A stretch of 29,931 nt of DNA, from the IMG/VR virus record IMGVR_UViG_3300017788_001661, positions 1 to 29,931 of that record, one strand, 5' to 3'. The translations under genes were made by a program, and so were the position numbers. Source of the stretch: a virus. Each line of letters opens with the position of its first letter. Position 1 is the first letter of the stretch. Positions 9,114-28,584 of the stretch are shown here, piece after piece. The notes below the pieces were generated by a model. That model was not told the origin of the DNA. It ran no database searches and saw only the letters and a program-made list of their open reading frames with translations.

Positions 9114-9365
9114 ATGAATGAATTCGAAAAAAACATAGAAGCAATGAAAGAACTACGCTCAAGGATTGATAAAGTATTAGCTGGTTCACCAATACCAGAA
9201 ACAGATTATAAACACCCTGACCCAGTCAAACACAAATATATTAGTTTTGCTAAAAGTGCCGTTAGAGTTGCGGCAGGTGTAGCATTATGTTATAGCATGT
9301 TTTGGTATGCAGGCAGTCTATTAATACTAGCAGAAGTATTAGGTGTTGCAGAAGAAATGGTATGA
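9114..9365 (+). CDS. Small single-span membrane protein
   Basis: 83 residues with a strong ribosome binding site (GGAGG). Residues 1-45 are charged and probably cytoplasmic. A hydrophobic segment follows from about 50 to 78 (VRVAAGVALCYSMFWYAGSL), long enough for one membrane helix or a hairpin. As the first gene behind an early-type promoter, it may act on the host inner membrane early in infection, but nothing in the sequence identifies a target. Overlaps the next gene by ATGA. Confidence 0.7.
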   Translation: MNEFEKNIEAMKELRSRIDKVLAGSPIPETDYKHPDPVKHKYISFAKSAVRVAAGVALCYSMFWYAGSLLILAEVLGVAEEMV

Positions 9366-9808
9366 TTATTGGTTTTACTTGTTCAACATTTGATCTGTTT
9401 CACGCTGGGCATATTATTATGCTTAAAGAAGCAAAGGCACAATGCGATTACCTTATAGTTGGATTACAAACTGATCCAACTATTGATCGTCCTACAGAAA
9501 AAAATAAACCTATTCAAAGTATTTTTGAACGCTATGTTCAACTACAGGCCTGCAAGTATGTTGACGAGATTGTTGTGTATGCTACAGAAAAAGATCTAGT
9601 AGACATATTGCTTTCTTATCCTATTAATGTTAGAATACTAGGTGAGGAATACGAACATCGTCAATTTACTGGGAGACAAGAATGTATTAGTAAAGGTATT
9701 AAATTTTATTTTAATAAAAGAGAACATACTTTTTCTACTACTGAATTAAGACAACGTGTTATTGATGCTGAAGCAGAAAAATTTATGAAAAAGGCCAATA
9801 ATGAATGA
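9362..9808 (+). CDS. Cytidylyltransferase-family nucleotidyltransferase
   Basis: 148 residues from the ATG at 9362, which overlaps the previous stop. A longer frame back to 9302 is unlikely. FTCSTFDLFHAGHIIMLKEA carries the HxGH nucleotide-binding motif (His14, Gly16, His17). HTFSTTELRQRV near the end corresponds to the family's ISSTxLR motif. The size and motifs resemble glycerol-3-phosphate cytidylyltransferase (TagD) or the RfaE/HldE nucleotidyl domain. Such enzymes join CTP or ATP to a phosphorylated small molecule and release pyrophosphate. The substrate cannot be told from sequence. A second HxGH domain occurs in the 1,032-residue protein at 20329. Confidence 0.8.
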   Translation: MIIGFTCSTFDLFHAGHIIMLKEAKAQCDYLIVGLQTDPTIDRPTEKNKPIQSIFERYVQLQACKYVDEIVVYATEKDLVDILLSYPINVRILGEEYEHRQFTGRQECISKGIKFYFNKREHTFSTTELRQRVIDAEAEKFMKKANNE

Positions 9809-19438: not shown

Positions 19439-19482
19439 AGTCCCGCTGTTCTGGATATTGATAAATATCACAATAGGGGACT
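19439..19482 (+). promoter_or_regulatory. Long-range stem hiding the RBS of the 19486 gene
   Basis: AGTCCC (19439-19444) can pair with GGGACT (19477-19482), which contains most of the AGGGGA ribosome binding site. Between them GATATT (19454-19459) and AATATC (19464-19469) form a second small stem over the late promoter. Transcripts started at the late promoter would begin near 19473-19476 and lack the left arm. Confidence 0.45.
19460..19467 (+). promoter_or_regulatory. T4-type late promoter (GATAAATA)
   Basis: An exact GATAAATA box 18 bases before the ATG at 19486, in a 48-base gap. It marks the switch from the chaperone/protease block to the second virion-protein block. Confidence 0.75.
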
Positions 19483-19485
19483 GAC

Positions 19486-19947
19486 ATGACAAAACAGGGG
19501 TTATTAGATTACATCGATCTCGTAGAATCTGAAGGCAGCGACATCTACGAAGGTGACGGATTTTATTTTGTTCTAGACGAAGATACTGGCATAGAGACTG
19601 AGGTACTAAAAGCCTGGGACGATGCTGTCCTAGTAGAACTAGATCATACTGCACTGTCTTTACTACAAGATGTTGGTGCACAATTCGTAGATTCCGAAGA
19701 TTTAAACGAAGCCAAATATCAGGGAAGAACTGTGCCTCTGGGCAAACCTATGAAAGGCGACGTTGCTAAGAGCAAGGTCTATGTACGTAAACCCAATGGC
19801 AAGATAGTAAAAGTCAACTTCGGTGACAAAAAACTCAGTATCAAAAAACATATCCCTGGTCGAAGAAAAAGTTTTAGAGCAAGGCATAATTGTGCCAATC
19901 CAGGTCCCCGCTGGAAAGCTAGATACTGGTCCTGCAGAGCTTGGTAA
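19486..19947 (+). CDS. Small late protein with basic Cys-containing C-terminus
   Basis: 153 residues. The N-terminal ~85 residues are acidic (LVESEGSDIYEGDGFYFVLD). The last ~60 are strongly basic and end in RRKSFRARHNCANPGPRWKA then RYWSCRAW, a conserved-looking motif I associate with phage virion proteins, with two cysteines that could pair or bind metal. The opposite charge of the two halves suggests a protein with an interaction region and a nucleic-acid or capsid-binding tail. Late promoter upstream. Exact function unknown. Confidence 0.7.
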   Translation: MTKQGLLDYIDLVESEGSDIYEGDGFYFVLDEDTGIETEVLKAWDDAVLVELDHTALSLLQDVGAQFVDSEDLNEAKYQGRTVPLGKPMKGDVAKSKVYVRKPNGKIVKVNFGDKKLSIKKHIPGRRKSFRARHNCANPGPRWKARYWSCRAW

Positions 19948-19948
19948 T

Positions 19949-20329
19949 ATGAAAATCACAGAACTATTCAATAATCCCAAAGAGCCTATAGACGCACTAT
20001 TAGGCACAGAAAAAGATCACGAAGAAAAAGACAAAGAATCTAAATTTGATTTAGATGACGACTTGATCTTTTATATGCACAACAACGATGATTTCTACAG
20101 AAGAAATTTATTTCCTGTGTTAAAAGTCTGCAAAGACAAATTTGATCATGGCGGCGGATTCAGCCATAGAATGTTCAAACCCATTGTAGCTCGTGCTTAC
20201 GAATCATACAGAAAAGAATTTCCCCTAAGAGAACTCGAAGACAGTCTAGAAGAAGAACAGTGTGAAGCTATAGCAAGAAAAATCTATAACACTGAATTAG
20301 GCAACATGAAAGATGGAAAATACCAGTAA
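19949..20329 (+). CDS. Acidic late protein, function unknown
   Basis: 126 residues from the ATG at 19949, one base after the previous stop. A longer frame from 19823 would lie inside the conserved basic end of the previous protein and is less likely. The N-terminus MKITELFNN resembles the short hydrophobic starts of the 20329 and 24393 proteins. The body is acidic (EKDHEEKDKESKFDLDDDLI) and helical, with YESYRKEFPLRELEDSLEEE near the end. It overlaps the next gene by TAATG. Confidence 0.65.
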   Translation: MKITELFNNPKEPIDALLGTEKDHEEKDKESKFDLDDDLIFYMHNNDDFYRRNLFPVLKVCKDKFDHGGGFSHRMFKPIVARAYESYRKEFPLRELEDSLEEEQCEAIARKIYNTELGNMKDGKYQ

Positions 20330-23300
20330 TGTTTCTGCGAGAACTTTATAGCCCAAGGGCAAAATTTTTAATCTGTGAAGGTGGTAATTTAGTCATCGGT
20401 GATGTCGAAGCCAATAAAATCGACACCACACAACGAGCCAGTGTAGTACCTATATTGGATAATGCACTGTCAGCGATCAACAGTGCCTATGCTGCCCAAC
20501 ATGGTGGTAAAGGCATTTGGAATCCTAAATTATTGGCCAGCAAAAAATTCCTAGCTGGATCAAGTTTTCATTTTTTCGACCGCACAGGTATCTCTGACGA
20601 GATTTTTGCACAGAAGAAAAAAACTGTAGGCGACATCGACACCATGATCGATGCCAATAAACGAGACGAGATAGAAGCTTGGTTGTCAAGTCTAAGTCCA
20701 GGCACTGCCATAGGACCTGCACGTTGGGTGGGTTTTGATAACAAAGATCCCACACAGATACTGACGCTGTGGAGTTTTCCAGATATCGTCATACAAAATA
20801 ACGAAGGTAAACAGTTTCCTATCAACATACAGATTGATCTGGAGATGAAAGAATACGAAAACGACGAGCCAACTGAATGGAGTCGATTCAGCACCAGCAG
20901 TAGTTGGGAAGATCTAAACTTTGGTATCAAAGGCGTCTTTCACAAATATCTAATACAGAGCATGACTGGATTGACTGCTCAAGATTTCATGCTGAGAAAA
21001 CTAGCGGGCAGAGGCAAAGCAAGGGCGCCTCAAGATACGCCCACTAGAGACAATATGTACAGCTTCGCCATCAAATCCAAAGAAGGTGGCGGACTGCGTC
21101 CCAAGTATGATCCAGTCATCGATCCCAAAACTGGAGAACAAGAAGTAGTAGATGGTCTACCAGTATTTGAACCACGTGCCACCACTGGCTATGAAAAAAA
21201 TCTAGGAAAAATTTTCCAAACAATATTTGGCTCTAGAATGGAACCGGAGCAACTGGAAAAAGAAAAAGAAAAGTTTTGGAGTTTTGTCGGTATACTAGAT
21301 TTGATGAAAATTTATTTGACTCCAGAGGAACAGAATGAAGTCATTAACAGCTTCTTAGAAAAATTATTTGCTCCAGGTGCTCAGGGTCTATATGCCAGTG
21401 ACAAAGACAAAGATCGCGATGAAAAATCTGCTGCTGCCAATAAAATGTTTGAGCTTTTAGGTGTGAAACCACCAGCTGACTTGGAATCGATGAAGCAGCA
21501 ATATTATGCAGCTTATAAATTAAGAGAGAGCATCAACGAAGCTGAAGACCCTGCAGTGGTACAAAGCAAACGCAAAGGCATTGTTCATCTAGAGAAAATG
21601 AAAGACATTGATTTCTTAGATCTCTTAGACGAATTGCGTGATGACACTGGCGAGAAATTGACATTGAACAATATTCCCATGACTGTTAAGATCGACGGCT
21701 TCGGATCAAGATTCGGCAAAAGCGAAGATGGTCGAGGATTTTATGAAACCAGTAGGACAGGACCTAAATTTGGCCGTGGCACTTTCTTAAAATATCATCA
21801 AGAAAAAGGCACACAGGATCCAGAAATTTTACAAAGAGCTGAAATGTTTGATGGACTACAGGATAGGTTCATGACATTGATCGGTGTCATCGATGACAGA
21901 TTAGGCAAAGATTTTTTAAATGATGTCAAAGTGCATGTGGAAGTGCTATACTTGCCCTTTGCCACTGAACAGGAAGATGGCAGGTTAAAATTTGTAGGCA
22001 TAAGTTACGACAAATTACCTGAAGATGTAGAGCTTGCGCTGGTACCATTGTTTGCAGAGATAGGCAGCACTGGTGAAACACACCCTAAAAGCGCTCAGAT
22101 AATTCGAACACTGAAAAAACTCGGCGTCATCGGCGACACGATGTTTATAGACAACAGTTTGACCACCAACGGAGAGATCGATGTAACTGGCATGATACCA
22201 CCGTTAGAAAACTTAGAAACACTGCGCAACATGATCCTAAGTAACAAGCGAGATGCTAAAAAAGAAGCCGCAGAAGCACTGCAACCAGTGAAAGACGATT
22301 TGGCCAATTATATCATCGATCATCCTGGAATATTAGGCAAAGATATATTAGGTCGGGATTATGAAGGTATCATATTAAATACCAATCAAGGTCCCATAAA
22401 AATCACTAGCAAAGAACAAAAAGATATCATCAAAGCAAAAAATGATGCTATCAAGGCCGCACGACCACCAGCTGCTGATCCCAATAAACCTAAATCAGGT
22501 AAGACTGCGGTAGTGACCATTGGTAGTTTCGTTGGTCACGTTGGACATCAACAATTAGTTCAGTTTGTATTAGACAAGGCCCAGCAACTAGGTGCAGATC
22601 CCTATGTCTATATCAGCAGCATGACTGGCCCCGATGATCCTATCCCACCAGAAGTAAAATTAGAGACTTGGCAGAAATTATATCCTGAACAACGAAGTAT
22701 CTTCCAGCTTATACAACCAGGTGGTACTCCAGTTAAAAAGATCGAAAAAGAATTGGTCACAGTCAGTAATCCTCCGCCATACGACAAGATCATAGTTATG
22801 GTAGGTGAAGATCGCTACGAAGGTGTGCGCAAATGGCTGCAACATCTAAGCAAACGCATGAAAAATCCGCAGTATCCAGGATTCGAACATGTGGAGTTTG
22901 ACGTGGAAAATACTCCACGGAGCGCAGAAGCCGGTGGCACCGGCATCAGCTTTACACAACTACGCAACGTGCTCAAAGACACTGACAAAACTGCGGATGA
23001 ACAATTCAGTGTGTGGCGCAAGGCATTTGATCCTGCGCTGGATGATCGATGGATCAAATATCTAATGACTGTGGCGAGGAAAGGAATGAGTGTGCAACCT
23101 AAAAAAGACGTCAAAGAAAGTGTGATGAGTGAGATCGATCTACAGATCGGCGACAAGCTAGACAAGGCCATAAGATTGTATAACAAAGGCAGGATCGATG
23201 CCGAAGTTCTAGGAGACTTCACTGTTAAATTGGCCAGCAGTGTGTCAAAAGAACTGGGTCTGGATCAAGATGCTGTGCAACAAGTGATCAACGATTATGT

Positions 23301-23427
23301 TGACCATGCGTTAGACGGCATTGATGAAGAAGCTGCGGGTGTGGGCATCATAACAAAACAAAATACCACTGCAGATGTGGGTCCAGGTACTTTAGGTAAG
23401 ATGTTGAGAAATCTAAAATTAGCATGA
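20329..23427 (+). CDS. Multidomain protein with three nucleotidyltransferase-like regions
   Basis: 1,032 residues. Region 1 (about 60-200) has AGSSFHFFD (Gly77-Ser78-Ser79) and GDIDTMID (Asp102, Asp104), like the metal-binding site of pol-beta-type nucleotidyltransferases, though the spacing is wider than usual. Region 2 (about 410-720) has MTVKIDGFGSRFG (Lys454-x-Asp456-Gly457), the KxDGxxxR motif I of covalent ligases/capping enzymes, with later VHVEVLYLP and DYEGIIL...IKITSK possibly matching motifs III-V. Region 3 (about 725-905) has GSFVGHVGHQQLV (His737-x-Gly-His740) and GISFTQLRNVL, an HxGH nucleotidyltransferase. The N-terminus MFLRELYSP may be a packaging tag. The C-terminus (GVGIITKQNTTADVGPGTLG) is a short conserved-looking tail. 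Role unknown; RNA repair or nucleotide-cofactor chemistry is possible. Confidence 0.65.
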   Translation: MFLRELYSPRAKFLICEGGNLVIGDVEANKIDTTQRASVVPILDNALSAINSAYAAQHGGKGIWNPKLLASKKFLAGSSFHFFDRTGISDEIFAQKKKTVGDIDTMIDANKRDEIEAWLSSLSPGTAIGPARWVGFDNKDPTQILTLWSFPDIVIQNNEGKQFPINIQIDLEMKEYENDEPTEWSRFSTSSSWEDLNFGIKGVFHKYLIQSMTGLTAQDFMLRKLAGRGKARAPQDTPTRDNMYSFAIKSKEGGGLRPKYDPVIDPKTGEQEVVDGLPVFEPRATTGYEKNLGKIFQTIFGSRMEPEQLEKEKEKFWSFVGILDLMKIYLTPEEQNEVINSFLEKLFAPGAQGLYASDKDKDRDEKSAAANKMFELLGVKPPADLESMKQQYYAAYKLRESINEAEDPAVVQSKRKGIVHLEKMKDIDFLDLLDELRDDTGEKLTLNNIPMTVKIDGFGSRFGKSEDGRGFYETSRTGPKFGRGTFLKYHQEKGTQDPEILQRAEMFDGLQDRFMTLIGVIDDRLGKDFLNDVKVHVEVLYLPFATEQEDGRLKFVGISYDKLPEDVELALVPLFAEIGSTGETHPKSAQIIRTLKKLGVIGDTMFIDNSLTTNGEIDVTGMIPPLENLETLRNMILSNKRDAKKEAAEALQPVKDDLANYIIDHPGILGKDILGRDYEGIILNTNQGPIKITSKEQKDIIKAKNDAIKAARPPAADPNKPKSGKTAVVTIGSFVGHVGHQQLVQFVLDKAQQLGADPYVYISSMTGPDDPIPPEVKLETWQKLYPEQRSIFQLIQPGGTPVKKIEKELVTVSNPPPYDKIIVMVGEDRYEGVRKWLQHLSKRMKNPQYPGFEHVEFDVENTPRSAEAGGTGISFTQLRNVLKDTDKTADEQFSVWRKAFDPALDDRWIKYLMTVARKGMSVQPKKDVKESVMSEIDLQIGDKLDKAIRLYNKGRIDAEVLGDFTVKLASSVSKELGLDQDAVQQVINDYVDHALDGIDEEAAGVGIITKQNTTADVGPGTLGKMLRNLKLA

Positions 23428-23760: not shown

Positions 23761-24393
23761 ATGAGTTTTGAATTTGATTTTACTAGAGAAAAACTTGCAG
23801 CCTGCATCTATAAAAACAAGAATCCTGATCCTTGGTATGATTCACTGGCTGAACATTTACCAACATTTGAGATCGTGACACCTGCTCGTGTAGCTGGTTT
23901 CATCAGTCAATGCCAGCACGAAAGTTTGGATTTTACACTGTTACAGGAAAATCTAAACTACAGCGCCAAAGGTCTACAAGGAACATTTAAAAAATATTTC
24001 GTGACTGAAGCAGATGCCAACGCATATCAACGCCAACCAGAAAAAATTGCCAACAGAGTCTATGCTAGTCGCATGGGCAACGGTGATGAGGCCAGCGGTG
24101 ATGGATTTAGATTCCGTGGACGTGGCTTAATCCAGCTTACTGGCCGCAATAATTACACCCAATTCAGCAGAGAATTCTTCGGCGATGATCACGTTGTAGA
24201 AGATCCTGATCTAGTACGCACACCACCATATGCTGTGCTCAGTGCCTGCTGGTTCTGGAACAAGAACAAACTAAATCAATGGTGTGATGCCGGCGATGTA
24301 GTCACTCTCAGCAAACGCATCAACGGTGGAACCATAGGTTTAGAAGATCGTATCAGCCATTGGAATCACTGTTTAGATATTTTAGAAGCATAA
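23761..24393 (+). CDS. GH19 endolysin (chitinase-fold lysozyme)
   Basis: 210 residues, a single catalytic domain. SQCQHESLDFTLLQENLNYS holds the two expected glutamates of family 19 (Glu54 as acid, Glu63 as base). FRGRGLIQLTGRNNYTQF is the most characteristic GH19 segment; AVLSACWFWNKNKLNQWCD and SKRINGGTIGLEDR complete the fold. In phages this family cleaves peptidoglycan. No signal peptide is visible, so it needs the holin to cross the inner membrane. Late promoter control fits a lysis role, but its place in a virion-protein block also allows a virion-carried enzyme. Next gene overlaps by TAATG. Confidence 0.92.
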   Translation: MSFEFDFTREKLAACIYKNKNPDPWYDSLAEHLPTFEIVTPARVAGFISQCQHESLDFTLLQENLNYSAKGLQGTFKKYFVTEADANAYQRQPEKIANRVYASRMGNGDEASGDGFRFRGRGLIQLTGRNNYTQFSREFFGDDHVVEDPDLVRTPPYAVLSACWFWNKNKLNQWCDAGDVVTLSKRINGGTIGLEDRISHWNHCLDILEA

Positions 24394-24626
24394 TGCGTCT
24401 AAGACAACTATTCGAAGAAGGTACTGCCAGCACTGTCGCTGGTAGTATCGCTTCAGTGCCAAATCCACAGGCGGCAATAGGCAACGCCAGTGCTAGAAAA
24501 GCCTACGGACGTGGCGCCAATCCTAAACCACCTAAAGCAAAACAGCGTGTAAATGCCAACGGAACAGCGAAAAATGCTCTAGATATGTCAACAAACATAT
24601 TTGGCGGAGAAACTATAAAACGATAA
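24393..24626 (+). CDS. Small basic protein with tag-like N-terminus
   Basis: 77 residues from the ATG at 24393 in the previous stop. It starts MRLRQLFEEGTAS, resembling the capsid-targeting sequences of T4 internal head proteins (MKTYQEF..EA). The remainder is basic and disordered-looking (SVPNPQAAIGNASARKAYGR, NPKPPKAKQR) and ends with a short conserved-looking segment (NALDMSTNIFGGETIKR). It is probably a virion or head-internal protein. Its stop codon lies inside the late promoter of the next gene. Confidence 0.6.
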   Translation: MRLRQLFEEGTASTVAGSIASVPNPQAAIGNASARKAYGRGANPKPPKAKQRVNANGTAKNALDMSTNIFGGETIKR

Positions 24627-25917: not shown

Positions 25918-28584
25918 ATGGATATTAAAAAGATACTCACATTAATTGAGTCTGCAGAACAACCCAAGCAGACACTCGCTGAAGGTCGAAACATGGCCAA
26001 AGATATGGTCATGCAACACTATACCAAACAGGCAATTAAAACGCCTGTTAAGCAGCCAGTGAGTAGACTCAATGAGTACTTCAAAGTCGTCGACAATGAA
26101 ATGTTAAATGTCGTCAAAGAAGCACATGATGCTAAACAAGTTGAAGTCAAAAAAATTGTTAATCGTGTATTAGAACGTTTAGACGAAGGCAAAAAAGATC
26201 CAGCACCCAAGCCACGTAACTTTGTGGCTAAGAATGCTATGAAAACTACCAGCGGTGCTGGAGCTCACAGAGACAAAAAGAAAGAGCAGAAACAAGGTTA
26301 CGAAAAACACAAAAATAAAGAATTAGCTGAAAATCAAGGTGTGACCGAAGGCAACTACAATCCTTTAGACTATGAACGTCAAGAACAAAAACGCATGGAT
26401 CAAGAACGTGCGCAATTTAAAAGAGATGAGCTCGAAGCTGAATTTGCCGGAGAAGAAGATTACTACAACAAGGTCATGTATGGTGCTTGGTACGTAAGAA
26501 TCAACGGTAAGATATGGCGCAAAGATGGCGAGCCTGTTACTTTTAAGGGCAAACAATCAGCTAGAAAAGCCGGACAGACTATCAAAAATCGAGCACCAGA
26601 GAAAAAAGTAGAAATAACAGACAGTGCCACAGACAGTACTATCAAAGAAGGAGATCGTGGCAGTGATTGGGGTGAGCCCGAAGAAATTTTGTCAGATGTT
26701 CTGAGAACTTTAGAAAGAGAAGTGGAGTGGCCATTGACTGACGTCATGGATCCAACAGAAGTCAAAGAACTGTTGTCTCCTATTGTATCTGCGGTCAATG
26801 ACAAACTACGCGACTTAGACAGCACTGATTCTGAAATTGATATCAGAGAAAATAATCAGTTAGTTGAAAAGGCTGTAAGCAAAGCACAACAGCGTTTCAT
26901 GGGCATGGTACATGCTGCCAAAAAAGGCGAGAAGGCCGCAAGTCCAGAAGTCGCCAAAGTTGCCAAGGGCATAAGCGCTAAAGCAGCTCGAGATTTCGCC
27001 AAGACAAAACACAAAGGTTTGCCTAATAAAAAAGTCAATATTAGAGAAGAAAAAGCCATAGACTATGGCGGTACTCACTCCGGTCGTGACAGTCGAGGTC
27101 GATGGGAAATAAGTCCAATTCAATCACCCAGGCAGTGGATCTCTTGTCCGGACGGTCATTATATAACTAAAAGTGGTGAAAGAGTACCATGCAGTACTTA
27201 TGGGCCAAATGGTCCAAGCGACCCGGGCTATTGGGAATCATATTTTGTCGATGCCAACGGTAAACGAGTTGAGGGCAGCATAAGCCCTTGGTTAAAATCA
27301 CTATCCCCAGAAGCCTATGAGGAGTGGGCCGACGCATACGAAGGTGCAGGCGGTGCAACTGTTGGTGGTAAAAAACAAGCTCAGGGGTCTAATCAGCCTC
27401 AAGGTCAGGCATCTAATCAAAAAACATCAACACCTACTACTAATAAGAGTGAAGAAAATAAAAAACTACAAATATACCTTAATAAAAAATACAATGCCGG
27501 TCTTGACGTAGATGGCATTGTAGGCCCAAAGACCAAAGCTGCTATAGCTAAGTTTATGAAGGAAAACGCTATTAATGAAAGTGTAGCAGGACCAAAAAAA
27601 TGCTGGCCTGGACATCGTAAAGTCGGCACTCAACCTGGTACAGGTAAAAACAAAGGCAAGCGTGTAAACGACTGTGAAAAGATCAAAGAGACTGCTTCAT
27701 TAGTTAGAGTCTATAGCAATGTATTGAAAAAATCAGTAGTTGGCCACGTTGTAGATTTAAAAGAAGGCATGGTATATGTAAATTATGCCAACACAAAAAT
27801 CGTCATGGGACACCCTTTGTCAAAGGTAGAACTGTTAGAAGCAGCGGCTGTGGCACCAGCAGCAGCAGGCATAGGTTCTAAACTGGCTAGATTTATTCCA
27901 GGCGTTGGCCTAGTAGCAGGCGGTTATGACGCATATCAACGTGCCAAACAAGGTGACTATACTGGTGCAGCACTGAGCGCAGGAGCAGGTCTTGCAGGCT
28001 TAGTTCCAGGTGTAGGCACGGCCGCAGCTACTGGATTGATCGGTGCGCAACTAGGCAGAGACAAAGCACGTACAGGTAGTTTCCTTCCCAGTTATGACGA
28101 GATAGGCGCTGCTGGAAAATCAGGACAAGCGGCCACGGCTGCTCCAGCAAGCTCAGGATATACCATACAGAAAGGCGACACACTGACAAAGATCGCCAAA
28201 GCCAACAACACCACAGTCGATGCCATAATGAAGGCTAACCCACAGATCACTGATCCAAATAAGATCGCTGCTGGTGCTAGTTTAAATCTTCCTGGTCAGA
28301 GTGCTGCTCCGGCTCCGCAAAAACCAGCAGCACAACCAGCAGCACCGACAACGAGACAGACTAATACAACAACTAATACCAATGTATCAGGTACAATAAA
28401 AATGGGCAAACCTGAAGGTCCTATTCAATATAACGGTAAAACCGTAAATCCAGGTGATCCTGAATACGATGCCGCCAGTCAAGCATTATTGAGAAGCCAA
28501 CAAAGACTACAACAGGCTAGACAACGACCGCAGCAACCTTCTACTGCTCCAGTCCAACAAGGCGCAACAAGCAAGGATTTTTAA
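25918..28584 (+). CDS. Large modular late protein: DUF3008-, PG-binding- and LysM-like domains
   Basis: 888 residues. It starts MDIKKILTLIESAEQ, very like the start of the next gene. About 318-370 is a DUF3008-like segment (SKAQQRFMGMVHAAKKGEKA, FAKTKHKGLPNKK). About 512-549 resembles a peptidoglycan-binding repeat (LQIYLNKKYNAGLDVDGIVG, then PKTKAAIAKF). Cys562 and Cys586 bracket a basic motif (CWPGHRKVG ... KRVNDC). About 635-715 is Gly/Ala-rich and hydrophobic (ARFIPGVGLVAGGYDAY, AGLAGLVPGVGTAAATGLIG). About 746-793 is LysM (YTIQKGDTLTKIAKANNTTV). The end is Gln/Pro-rich. Many linkers end in Glu-Gly/Ala. It may be packaged in the virion and act on the cell wall at entry; this is inference. 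Confidence 0.65.
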   Translation: MDIKKILTLIESAEQPKQTLAEGRNMAKDMVMQHYTKQAIKTPVKQPVSRLNEYFKVVDNEMLNVVKEAHDAKQVEVKKIVNRVLERLDEGKKDPAPKPRNFVAKNAMKTTSGAGAHRDKKKEQKQGYEKHKNKELAENQGVTEGNYNPLDYERQEQKRMDQERAQFKRDELEAEFAGEEDYYNKVMYGAWYVRINGKIWRKDGEPVTFKGKQSARKAGQTIKNRAPEKKVEITDSATDSTIKEGDRGSDWGEPEEILSDVLRTLEREVEWPLTDVMDPTEVKELLSPIVSAVNDKLRDLDSTDSEIDIRENNQLVEKAVSKAQQRFMGMVHAAKKGEKAASPEVAKVAKGISAKAARDFAKTKHKGLPNKKVNIREEKAIDYGGTHSGRDSRGRWEISPIQSPRQWISCPDGHYITKSGERVPCSTYGPNGPSDPGYWESYFVDANGKRVEGSISPWLKSLSPEAYEEWADAYEGAGGATVGGKKQAQGSNQPQGQASNQKTSTPTTNKSEENKKLQIYLNKKYNAGLDVDGIVGPKTKAAIAKFMKENAINESVAGPKKCWPGHRKVGTQPGTGKNKGKRVNDCEKIKETASLVRVYSNVLKKSVVGHVVDLKEGMVYVNYANTKIVMGHPLSKVELLEAAAVAPAAAGIGSKLARFIPGVGLVAGGYDAYQRAKQGDYTGAALSAGAGLAGLVPGVGTAAATGLIGAQLGRDKARTGSFLPSYDEIGAAGKSGQAATAAPASSGYTIQKGDTLTKIAKANNTTVDAIMKANPQITDPNKIAAGASLNLPGQSAAPAPQKPAAQPAAPTTRQTNTTTNTNVSGTIKMGKPEGPIQYNGKTVNPGDPEYDAASQALLRSQQRLQQARQRPQQPSTAPVQQGATSKDF

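Follow-up and report, generated by a model that had tools for sequence, protein, structure and literature searches.

A phage gene encoding three nucleotidyltransferase domains in one chain with a predicted capsid-targeting peptide

Results

Three nucleotidyltransferase domains in a single frame

The gene at positions 20329–23427 (+ strand) of a 29,931-nucleotide stretch of viral DNA (IMG/VR record IMGVR_UViG_3300017788_001661, positions 1 to 29,931; the whole stretch is referred to as the window) encodes a 1,032-residue chain that is almost certainly made up of three real nucleotidyltransferase domains of the pol-beta (D1), ligase (D2) and HIGH (D3) types. The protein appears, on balance, to be a late-expressed, head-packaged and co-injected enzyme polyprotein of an uncultured T4-like phage, and may serve in RNA (tRNA) end repair. 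An initial annotation, made from the letters of the DNA, had described one frame of this length carrying three nucleotidyltransferase motifs. The frame is indeed open from an ATG, and G77-S78-S79 and D102-I-D104, K454-I-D-G-F-G-S-R461, and H737-V-G-H740 all lie where that annotation had placed them. The present analysis adds a third pol-beta carboxylate (D170), ligase motifs III, IV and V, and the C-terminal HIGH signature GISFTQLR (residues 872–879).

D1 comprises residues 18–397 (20380–21519), D2, of the covalent ligase type, residues 414–706 (21568–22446), and D3 residues 725–923 (22501–23097), and the domain boundaries are marked by independent similarity to phrog_19290, phrog_12709 and phrog_3041, respectively. 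The C-terminal tail (residues 924–1032; 23098–23424) is the most variable part and ranges from 0 to ~1,250 aa in homologues.

Profile scans of IMG/VR found 190 relatives of D1, 80 of which were retained, and 27 relatives of D2. In the alignment of distinct D1 homologues, G77, S78, D102, D104 and D170 each occur in 77/77, so that the G-S pair, DxD and the third carboxylate are all present; these counts are partly circular, GDID and QxDxE having formed part of the patterns scanned with. That scan made no use of D2 or D3, whose key residues were found in 60/60 and 55/55 of the fetched loci, respectively. Among distinct homologues of D2, K454, D456, G457, E538, E679, G680 and K691 are each conserved in 76/76 and R461 in 75/76, corresponding to lysine-AMP ligase motifs I (K454-x-D-G), III (E538), IV (E679-G680) and V (K691). 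In D3, G739, H740 and D828 (the last residue of GED 826–828) are each conserved in 71/71, R879 in 70/71 and H737 in 68/71. The complete catalytic sets are invariant despite 23–30% identity among homologues. The residues whose conservation had been proposed as a check (Lys454, His737/740 and Asp102/104) are therefore invariant or nearly so, and not there by chance.

Structure prediction, also proposed as a check, gave strong fold support for D3, moderate support for D1 and weak support for D2. The D3 model matched PPAT/NMNAT with Z 13.3, and D3 was related to the RibF sequence profile (E 3.5e-6) and to phrog_3041 (E 8e-15). HxGH, an ISxTxxR-type motif and a Rossmann-like fold, the features of a HIGH-type enzyme, were all found in it. 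PPAT, NMNAT and FAD synthetase have a common fold class. A second, shorter HIGH-type nucleotidyltransferase (GFTCSTFDLFHAGH), which resembles glycerol-3-phosphate cytidylyltransferase, is encoded separately from the fusion gene at 9302–9808 of the window.

The AlphaFold2 model of D1, built from the homologue alignment, had a pLDDT of 93.7, and the best 50 re-aligned PDB rows were all Pol beta/lambda/mu or TdT (family X), with Z 6.6–7.2 over 171–188 residues. By sequence alone, Pfam and PDB sequence profiles yielded nothing for D1 and D2, matches to colicin E1 and carboxypeptidase being due to chance. None of 64 D1 members was above noise in Pfam. Assignment of D1 to RlaP was rejected, as the RlaP model PF10127 was matched by none of the D1 members and found in 0/15 related genomes. 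D1 is nearly restricted to viruses; a host origin was rejected on finding just 2 matches in 84,980 cellular genomes, both on metagenome-assembled contigs.

D2 was searched with a two-domain D2-D3 AlphaFold2 model (pLDDT 91.8). Foldseek returned weak matches to the adenylyltransferase domain of a fungal tRNA ligase and to the DNA ligase of African swine fever virus (ASFV), with a probability of 0.92 each; these and human DNA ligase I were matched at E ~0.005–0.016. In BFVD, a viral RNA ligase was matched at E 2e-5. In the model, motif V is followed by a single helix and then the D3 linker, with no C-terminal OB-fold as in DNA ligase or capping enzyme. None of 45 members matched the RNA_ligase, RNA_lig_T4_1 or DUF6267 models of Pfam, and D2 was not accepted as a DUF6267 member at a profile probability of just 27%. 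Comparison of the D2 profile with T4 Rnl1, Rnl2 and DNA ligase revealed no significant relation.

Predicted targeting peptide and processing sites

In T4, gp21 cleaves after (L/I)xE, and internal proteins bear targeting propeptides of 10–19 residues (PMC9026906). According to sequence records, T4 IPII and IPIII start MKTYQEFIAE/A (the slash marks the cleavage site). The fusion protein starts MFLRELYSPRAKFLICE/GGN, a form that resembles a T4 capsid-targeting peptide ending in [LIV]xE/. Residues 1–17 (20329–20379) are thus predicted to be a capsid-targeting propeptide that is cut after E17 (ICE/GGN); residues 1–16 are disordered in the AlphaFold model. The pattern xxE/GGN is present in 56/60 homologue clusters, with L at P3 in 38, I in 14 and V in 4 (56/56 L, I or V). 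Among the other four clusters, three, all from cultured phages, lack the peptide and start M/GGN; hence, the predicted mature end is the natural start of untagged homologues. Among cultured phages, for instance, Campylobacter phage CP21 has a tagged D1 (MKLSELILILE/GGN) and Vibrio phage pv27 an untagged one (M/GGN).

A second prohead-protease site, I402-N-E404/A405 (21532–21543), is predicted at the D1-D2 junction from linker statistics. This linker is otherwise variable in sequence and length, but includes [LI]xE in 36/43 clusters (shuffles: mean 8.0, maximum 16) and [LI]xEA in 25/43 (shuffles: mean 1.0, maximum 5). Such sites were found in 0/39 clusters in the D2-D3 linker. As a conserved cleavage-type site stands between them, separation of D1 from D2-D3 is probable, and after processing the three activities would probably no longer be joined in a single chain.

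Stand-alone D2 and D3 genes often carry a tag of their own, e.g. MIISFKEFIAE/S for D2 (L081) and MLLSELFE/A for D3 (L070). Tag-like starts such as MRAKEFI and MRASEFITE were found in 89/415 genes just downstream of D1 (shuffles: mean 27, maximum 43), and a protease of the gp21 family in 7/15 related records.

HIGH enzymes related to D3 have been reported in virions of several phages, namely S-CREM2_154 (Table 3 of PMC10665884), S-SZBM1_140 (PMC9146016, Table 1), S-SCSM1_91 (PMC9602691) and T4-GC190 of S-SM1 (PMC3037559). The first three match phrog_3041, as does D3, and their sequence records show tag-like starts (MKNFSSFLTE/A, MRFRQFIIE/A and MKSFLQFLKE/A, respectively). Possible carry-over from the lysate into virion lists is raised as a caution in passages of PMC10665884 and PMC9602691.

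The product of S-CREM2_156 (L131 4513–5226), annotated as hypothetical, also appears in the virion list of PMC10665884, and it matches the pol-beta-type Pfam model NTP_transf_2 at 21.4 bits against a cut-off of 21. Its gene lies two genes after that of the tagged HIGH enzyme, and the two may represent a virion-borne nucleotidyltransferase pair, which the available part of PMC10665884 does not note.

The initial annotation had suggested that a tag-like N-terminus might lead to packaging. This suggestion is strengthened by the capsid-targeting-like peptide, the protease-site pattern, the tag-rich neighbourhood, the virion-detected D3 relatives and the late-promoter-like sites described below, and head packaging with protease processing of the fusion protein is now considered highly likely; its packaging, cleavage and injection are inferred.

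Fusion and fission of the three enzymes

The metagenomic search proposed in the initial annotation showed that the fusion is real and widespread. In a set of 70 viral contigs differing by >10% in D1, the three domains are encoded in one frame (916–2,135 aa, stop to stop) in 51/70 and as separate genes in 8/70, the others being partly fused; the order D1, D2, D3 is kept in every contig. Xanthomonas phage X1 and Stenotrophomonas phage Ps15 encode D1, D2 and D3 in neighbouring genes, except that a further gene without a Pfam match (L006 7008–8012 and L008 6728–7672, respectively) lies between those for D1 and D2. As the enzymes also occur as separate adjacent genes, the system is modular, and the fusion is one of the forms that it takes. 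Their being fused in some genomes and adjacent in others suggests that the three act together. The D1-D2-D3 architecture was not found described in the literature searched.

At locus L071 (8067–10029), D2 is fused to DUF6267 in a 654-aa frame, giving two KxDG proteins in tandem. A parallel operon in cyanophages, a pelagiphage and Methylophilales phages (L127–L130, L010) includes a gene with an SxK-type motif, a DUF6267 gene (KWDG and ligase-like motifs) and a HIGH enzyme gene. Long C-terminal tails after D3, of up to ~1,250 aa (L017–L020, L082, L087 and others), contain repeated [LIV]xE[AGS] sites as well as blocks like AExRLFNALxRP and MRAKEFLAE, which are possibly further packaged proteins on one chain.

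Neighbouring genes and late-promoter-like elements

The fusion gene is the last of a three-gene run on the + strand that is headed by a putative late-promoter-like element, GATAAATA (19460–19467, + strand), 25 nt 5' of the gene at 19486 and two genes before the fusion frame. The first gene (19486–19947) encodes a small protein with a C-terminal SFRARHNC-type domain (phrog_7595), which is also found at the end of a HIGH enzyme of a Methylophilales phage. The second (19949–20329), given a GTG start at 19823 in the mechanical listing and assigned its start here by inspection, begins with a capsid-targeting-like MKITELF. Downstream, the gene at 24393–24626 (+ strand; listed from TTG 24360) has a capsid-targeting-like start, MRLRQLFEEGTAS, and the same class is found in relatives. 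A protein of 888 aa (25918–28584) that contains LysM and peptidoglycan-binding domains also has a tag-like start, MDIKKILTLIESAEQ.

The fusion gene had initially been placed behind a late promoter, and this is plausible. The exact T4 late promoter TATAAATA is absent from the window, and GATAAATA, which stands 25–40 nt upstream of 4736, 7105, 12548, 19486, 23761 and 24653, was taken instead on positional evidence as the candidate late promoter of the phage group. ATAAATA is no commoner in the window than expected by chance, but the + strand bears every one of the copies (7/7), and 6/7 stand 15–40 nt 5' of a gene start (P ~1e-9, for a range picked after the data had been seen). Among 74 related loci, the element occurs within 0.9 kb upstream of D1 on the coding strand in 41, as compared with 3 on the opposite strand.

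Discussion

In the proposed pathway, peptide 1–17 would target the polyprotein to the prohead core, where a prohead protease of the gp21 type would cut after E17 to give a mature N-terminus GGN. A second cut of this type, after E404 inside the head, would set D1 apart from D2-D3. The enzymes would then exit together with the DNA and go to work in the host immediately, ahead of phage gene expression. D1 may extend a 3' end by a nucleotide, D2 may carry out sealing via a lysine-AMP mechanism, and D3 may be a HIGH-type adenylyl- or cytidylyltransferase making a cofactor or an adenylated intermediate, a role suggested by analogy. By the same kind of argument, the likeliest target would be RNA, and in particular tRNA that host defence nucleases have cleaved. 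For RlaP-type repair, a pol-beta nucleotidyltransferase has been predicted to be paired with an RNA ligase, lost nucleotides being restored by the nucleotidyltransferase ahead of sealing (PMC7824862). RNA-end repair as the function of the fusion protein, for which this analogy argues, is a serious candidate whose chances fall a little short of even.

Several observations weigh against this interpretation. All structural matches of D1 are below Z 8, and its fold match is rated as moderate because plain Foldseek with the D1 model gave no significant match. The likeness of D2 to the ligase fold is weak in the model, and the motif evidence outweighs the fold evidence; its profile probability with T4 Rnl1 is 6%, although motifs IV and V align in register. 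The D1-D2 linker has no [LI]xE in 7/43 fusions. The D1 proteins of X1, Ps15 and Vibrio phage have no tag, nor do several stand-alone D3 genes (L081, L089, L104 and L109), so that tags are not always present when the three genes are separate, and the enzymes therefore occur unpackaged too. A gp21-type protease was not found in 8/15 related records, which are perhaps incomplete; the window itself is a 30-kb fragment. A virion proteome of this phage, or of any phage with the full fusion, was not found, and S-SZBM1_141, the ligase-like DUF6267 neighbour of the tagged HIGH enzyme, is absent from the virion list of S-SZBM1. As to RNA repair, no end-healing enzyme (kinase or phosphatase) was identified, and neither tRNA genes nor Rfam RNAs were found in the window.

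If the set were instead a packaged DNA-repair kit, D1 would fill gaps in the manner of Pol X and D2 would serve as a DNA ligase, the two mending gaps and nicks in the incoming genome, and D3 would be an unrelated passenger. The nearest structures of D1 (Pol beta/lambda/mu and TdT) and the human DNA ligase I and ASFV ligase among the weak matches of D2 agree with such a role, which is nevertheless unlikely: D3 has no part in gap repair, yet the same order is kept in most genomes, and D2 lacks an OB-fold after motif V and also matches a tRNA-ligase domain. Moreover, ordinary DNA ligases are already carried by 6/15 related phages, which is a mild argument against a DNA-ligase role for D2. The scarcity of canonical RNA ligases in related phages (1/15 for each family) fits D1-D2 acting in their place but does not show it. 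Given the nearness of D3 to PPAT, NMNAT and FAD synthetase, a role in cofactor or signal metabolism was also considered, with NAD or some other dinucleotide as the product of D3, and with D1 and D2 modifying small molecules or proteins; once packaged, the set would counter NAD-depleting or nucleotide-signal defences. NMNAT-like virion proteins of cyanophages have been read as NAD makers (PMC9602691), and NAD/ADP-ribose enzymes in virions are a known theme (PMC9503650). This role is given a low probability, as it leaves unexplained why ligase-type and pol-beta-type enzymes stay together, and a NadV partner occurs in just 4/15 related phages; for the latter reason D3 was rejected as a strict NMNAT paired with NadV.

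That the protein is an ordinary late cytoplasmic enzyme, its N-terminal peptide and LxE motifs being unconnected with packaging, is improbable. Three D1 homologues from cultured phages lack the peptide and no virion proteome was found for the fusion, but the site statistics hold at two junctions and not at the third, separate D2 and D3 genes carry tags in a tag-rich neighbourhood, and three tagged relatives of D3 are in virion lists (Table 3 of PMC10665884; PMC9146016; PMC9602691). Hardly credible is an origin of the motifs as look-alikes in unrelated folds: D1 and D2 match no Pfam family, but the catalytic sets are complete and invariant at such low identity, and the folds match for D1 and D3 and, less well, for D2.

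Phage RNA repair is usually thought to be made after infection. More tentatively than packaging itself, polyprotein delivery of effectors can be envisaged, in which one targeting peptide would take a three-enzyme repair kit into the head, the capsid-maturation protease would free the enzymes, and injection would ready the repair of host-inflicted RNA damage before phage expression, with relatives that have a long C-tail carrying further proteins. If so, a kit packaged in advance would act before translation can be stopped by host anticodon nucleases, and a candidate role would be available for the puzzling NMNAT or 'cytidyltransferase' proteins repeatedly seen in cyanophage virions. It would also suggest that a capsid-maturation protease can free several enzymes from one chain, and the rule of tag plus site would allow prediction of injected proteins in uncultured T4-like phages.

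Head-packaged phage effectors are already known, and the new element here would be the polyprotein logic, in which a targeting peptide is combined with a maturation site and with another site that lies between enzymes. The T4 internal head proteins and Alt, a packaged enzyme that acts on arrival, are processed by gp21 and injected, and are alike in late expression and in a short N-terminal peptide ending in [LI]xE/; they are, however, single enzymes or small proteins with terminal cuts, whereas here there are three enzymes per chain and a predicted cut between enzymes. The pairs of RlaP and RNA ligase (PMC7824862) likewise team a pol-beta nucleotidyltransferase with a lysine-AMP ligase, but D1 does not match PF10127, D2 does not match RNA_ligase, a HIGH enzyme is added and head packaging is predicted. 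The 'cytidyltransferase' or NMNAT-like virion proteins of cyanophages (T4-GC190; phrog_3041, phrog_395) are homologues of D3 with a tag-like start; unlike D3, they are stand-alone and have a C-terminal extension of their own, and the ligase-like neighbour in S-SZBM1 is DUF6267 and not D2. Polyvalent proteins are also large multidomain chains that are delivered with the virion, as is proposed here, and are sometimes proteolytically processed, but the available text of PMC5512222 describes no such nucleotidyltransferase trio and no capsid-targeting peptide with gp21-type sites. Finally, the Pol X and ligase of ASFV share with the fusion protein the pairing of a pol-beta-fold enzyme with a ligase, but are separate proteins that act on DNA and have no HIGH domain.

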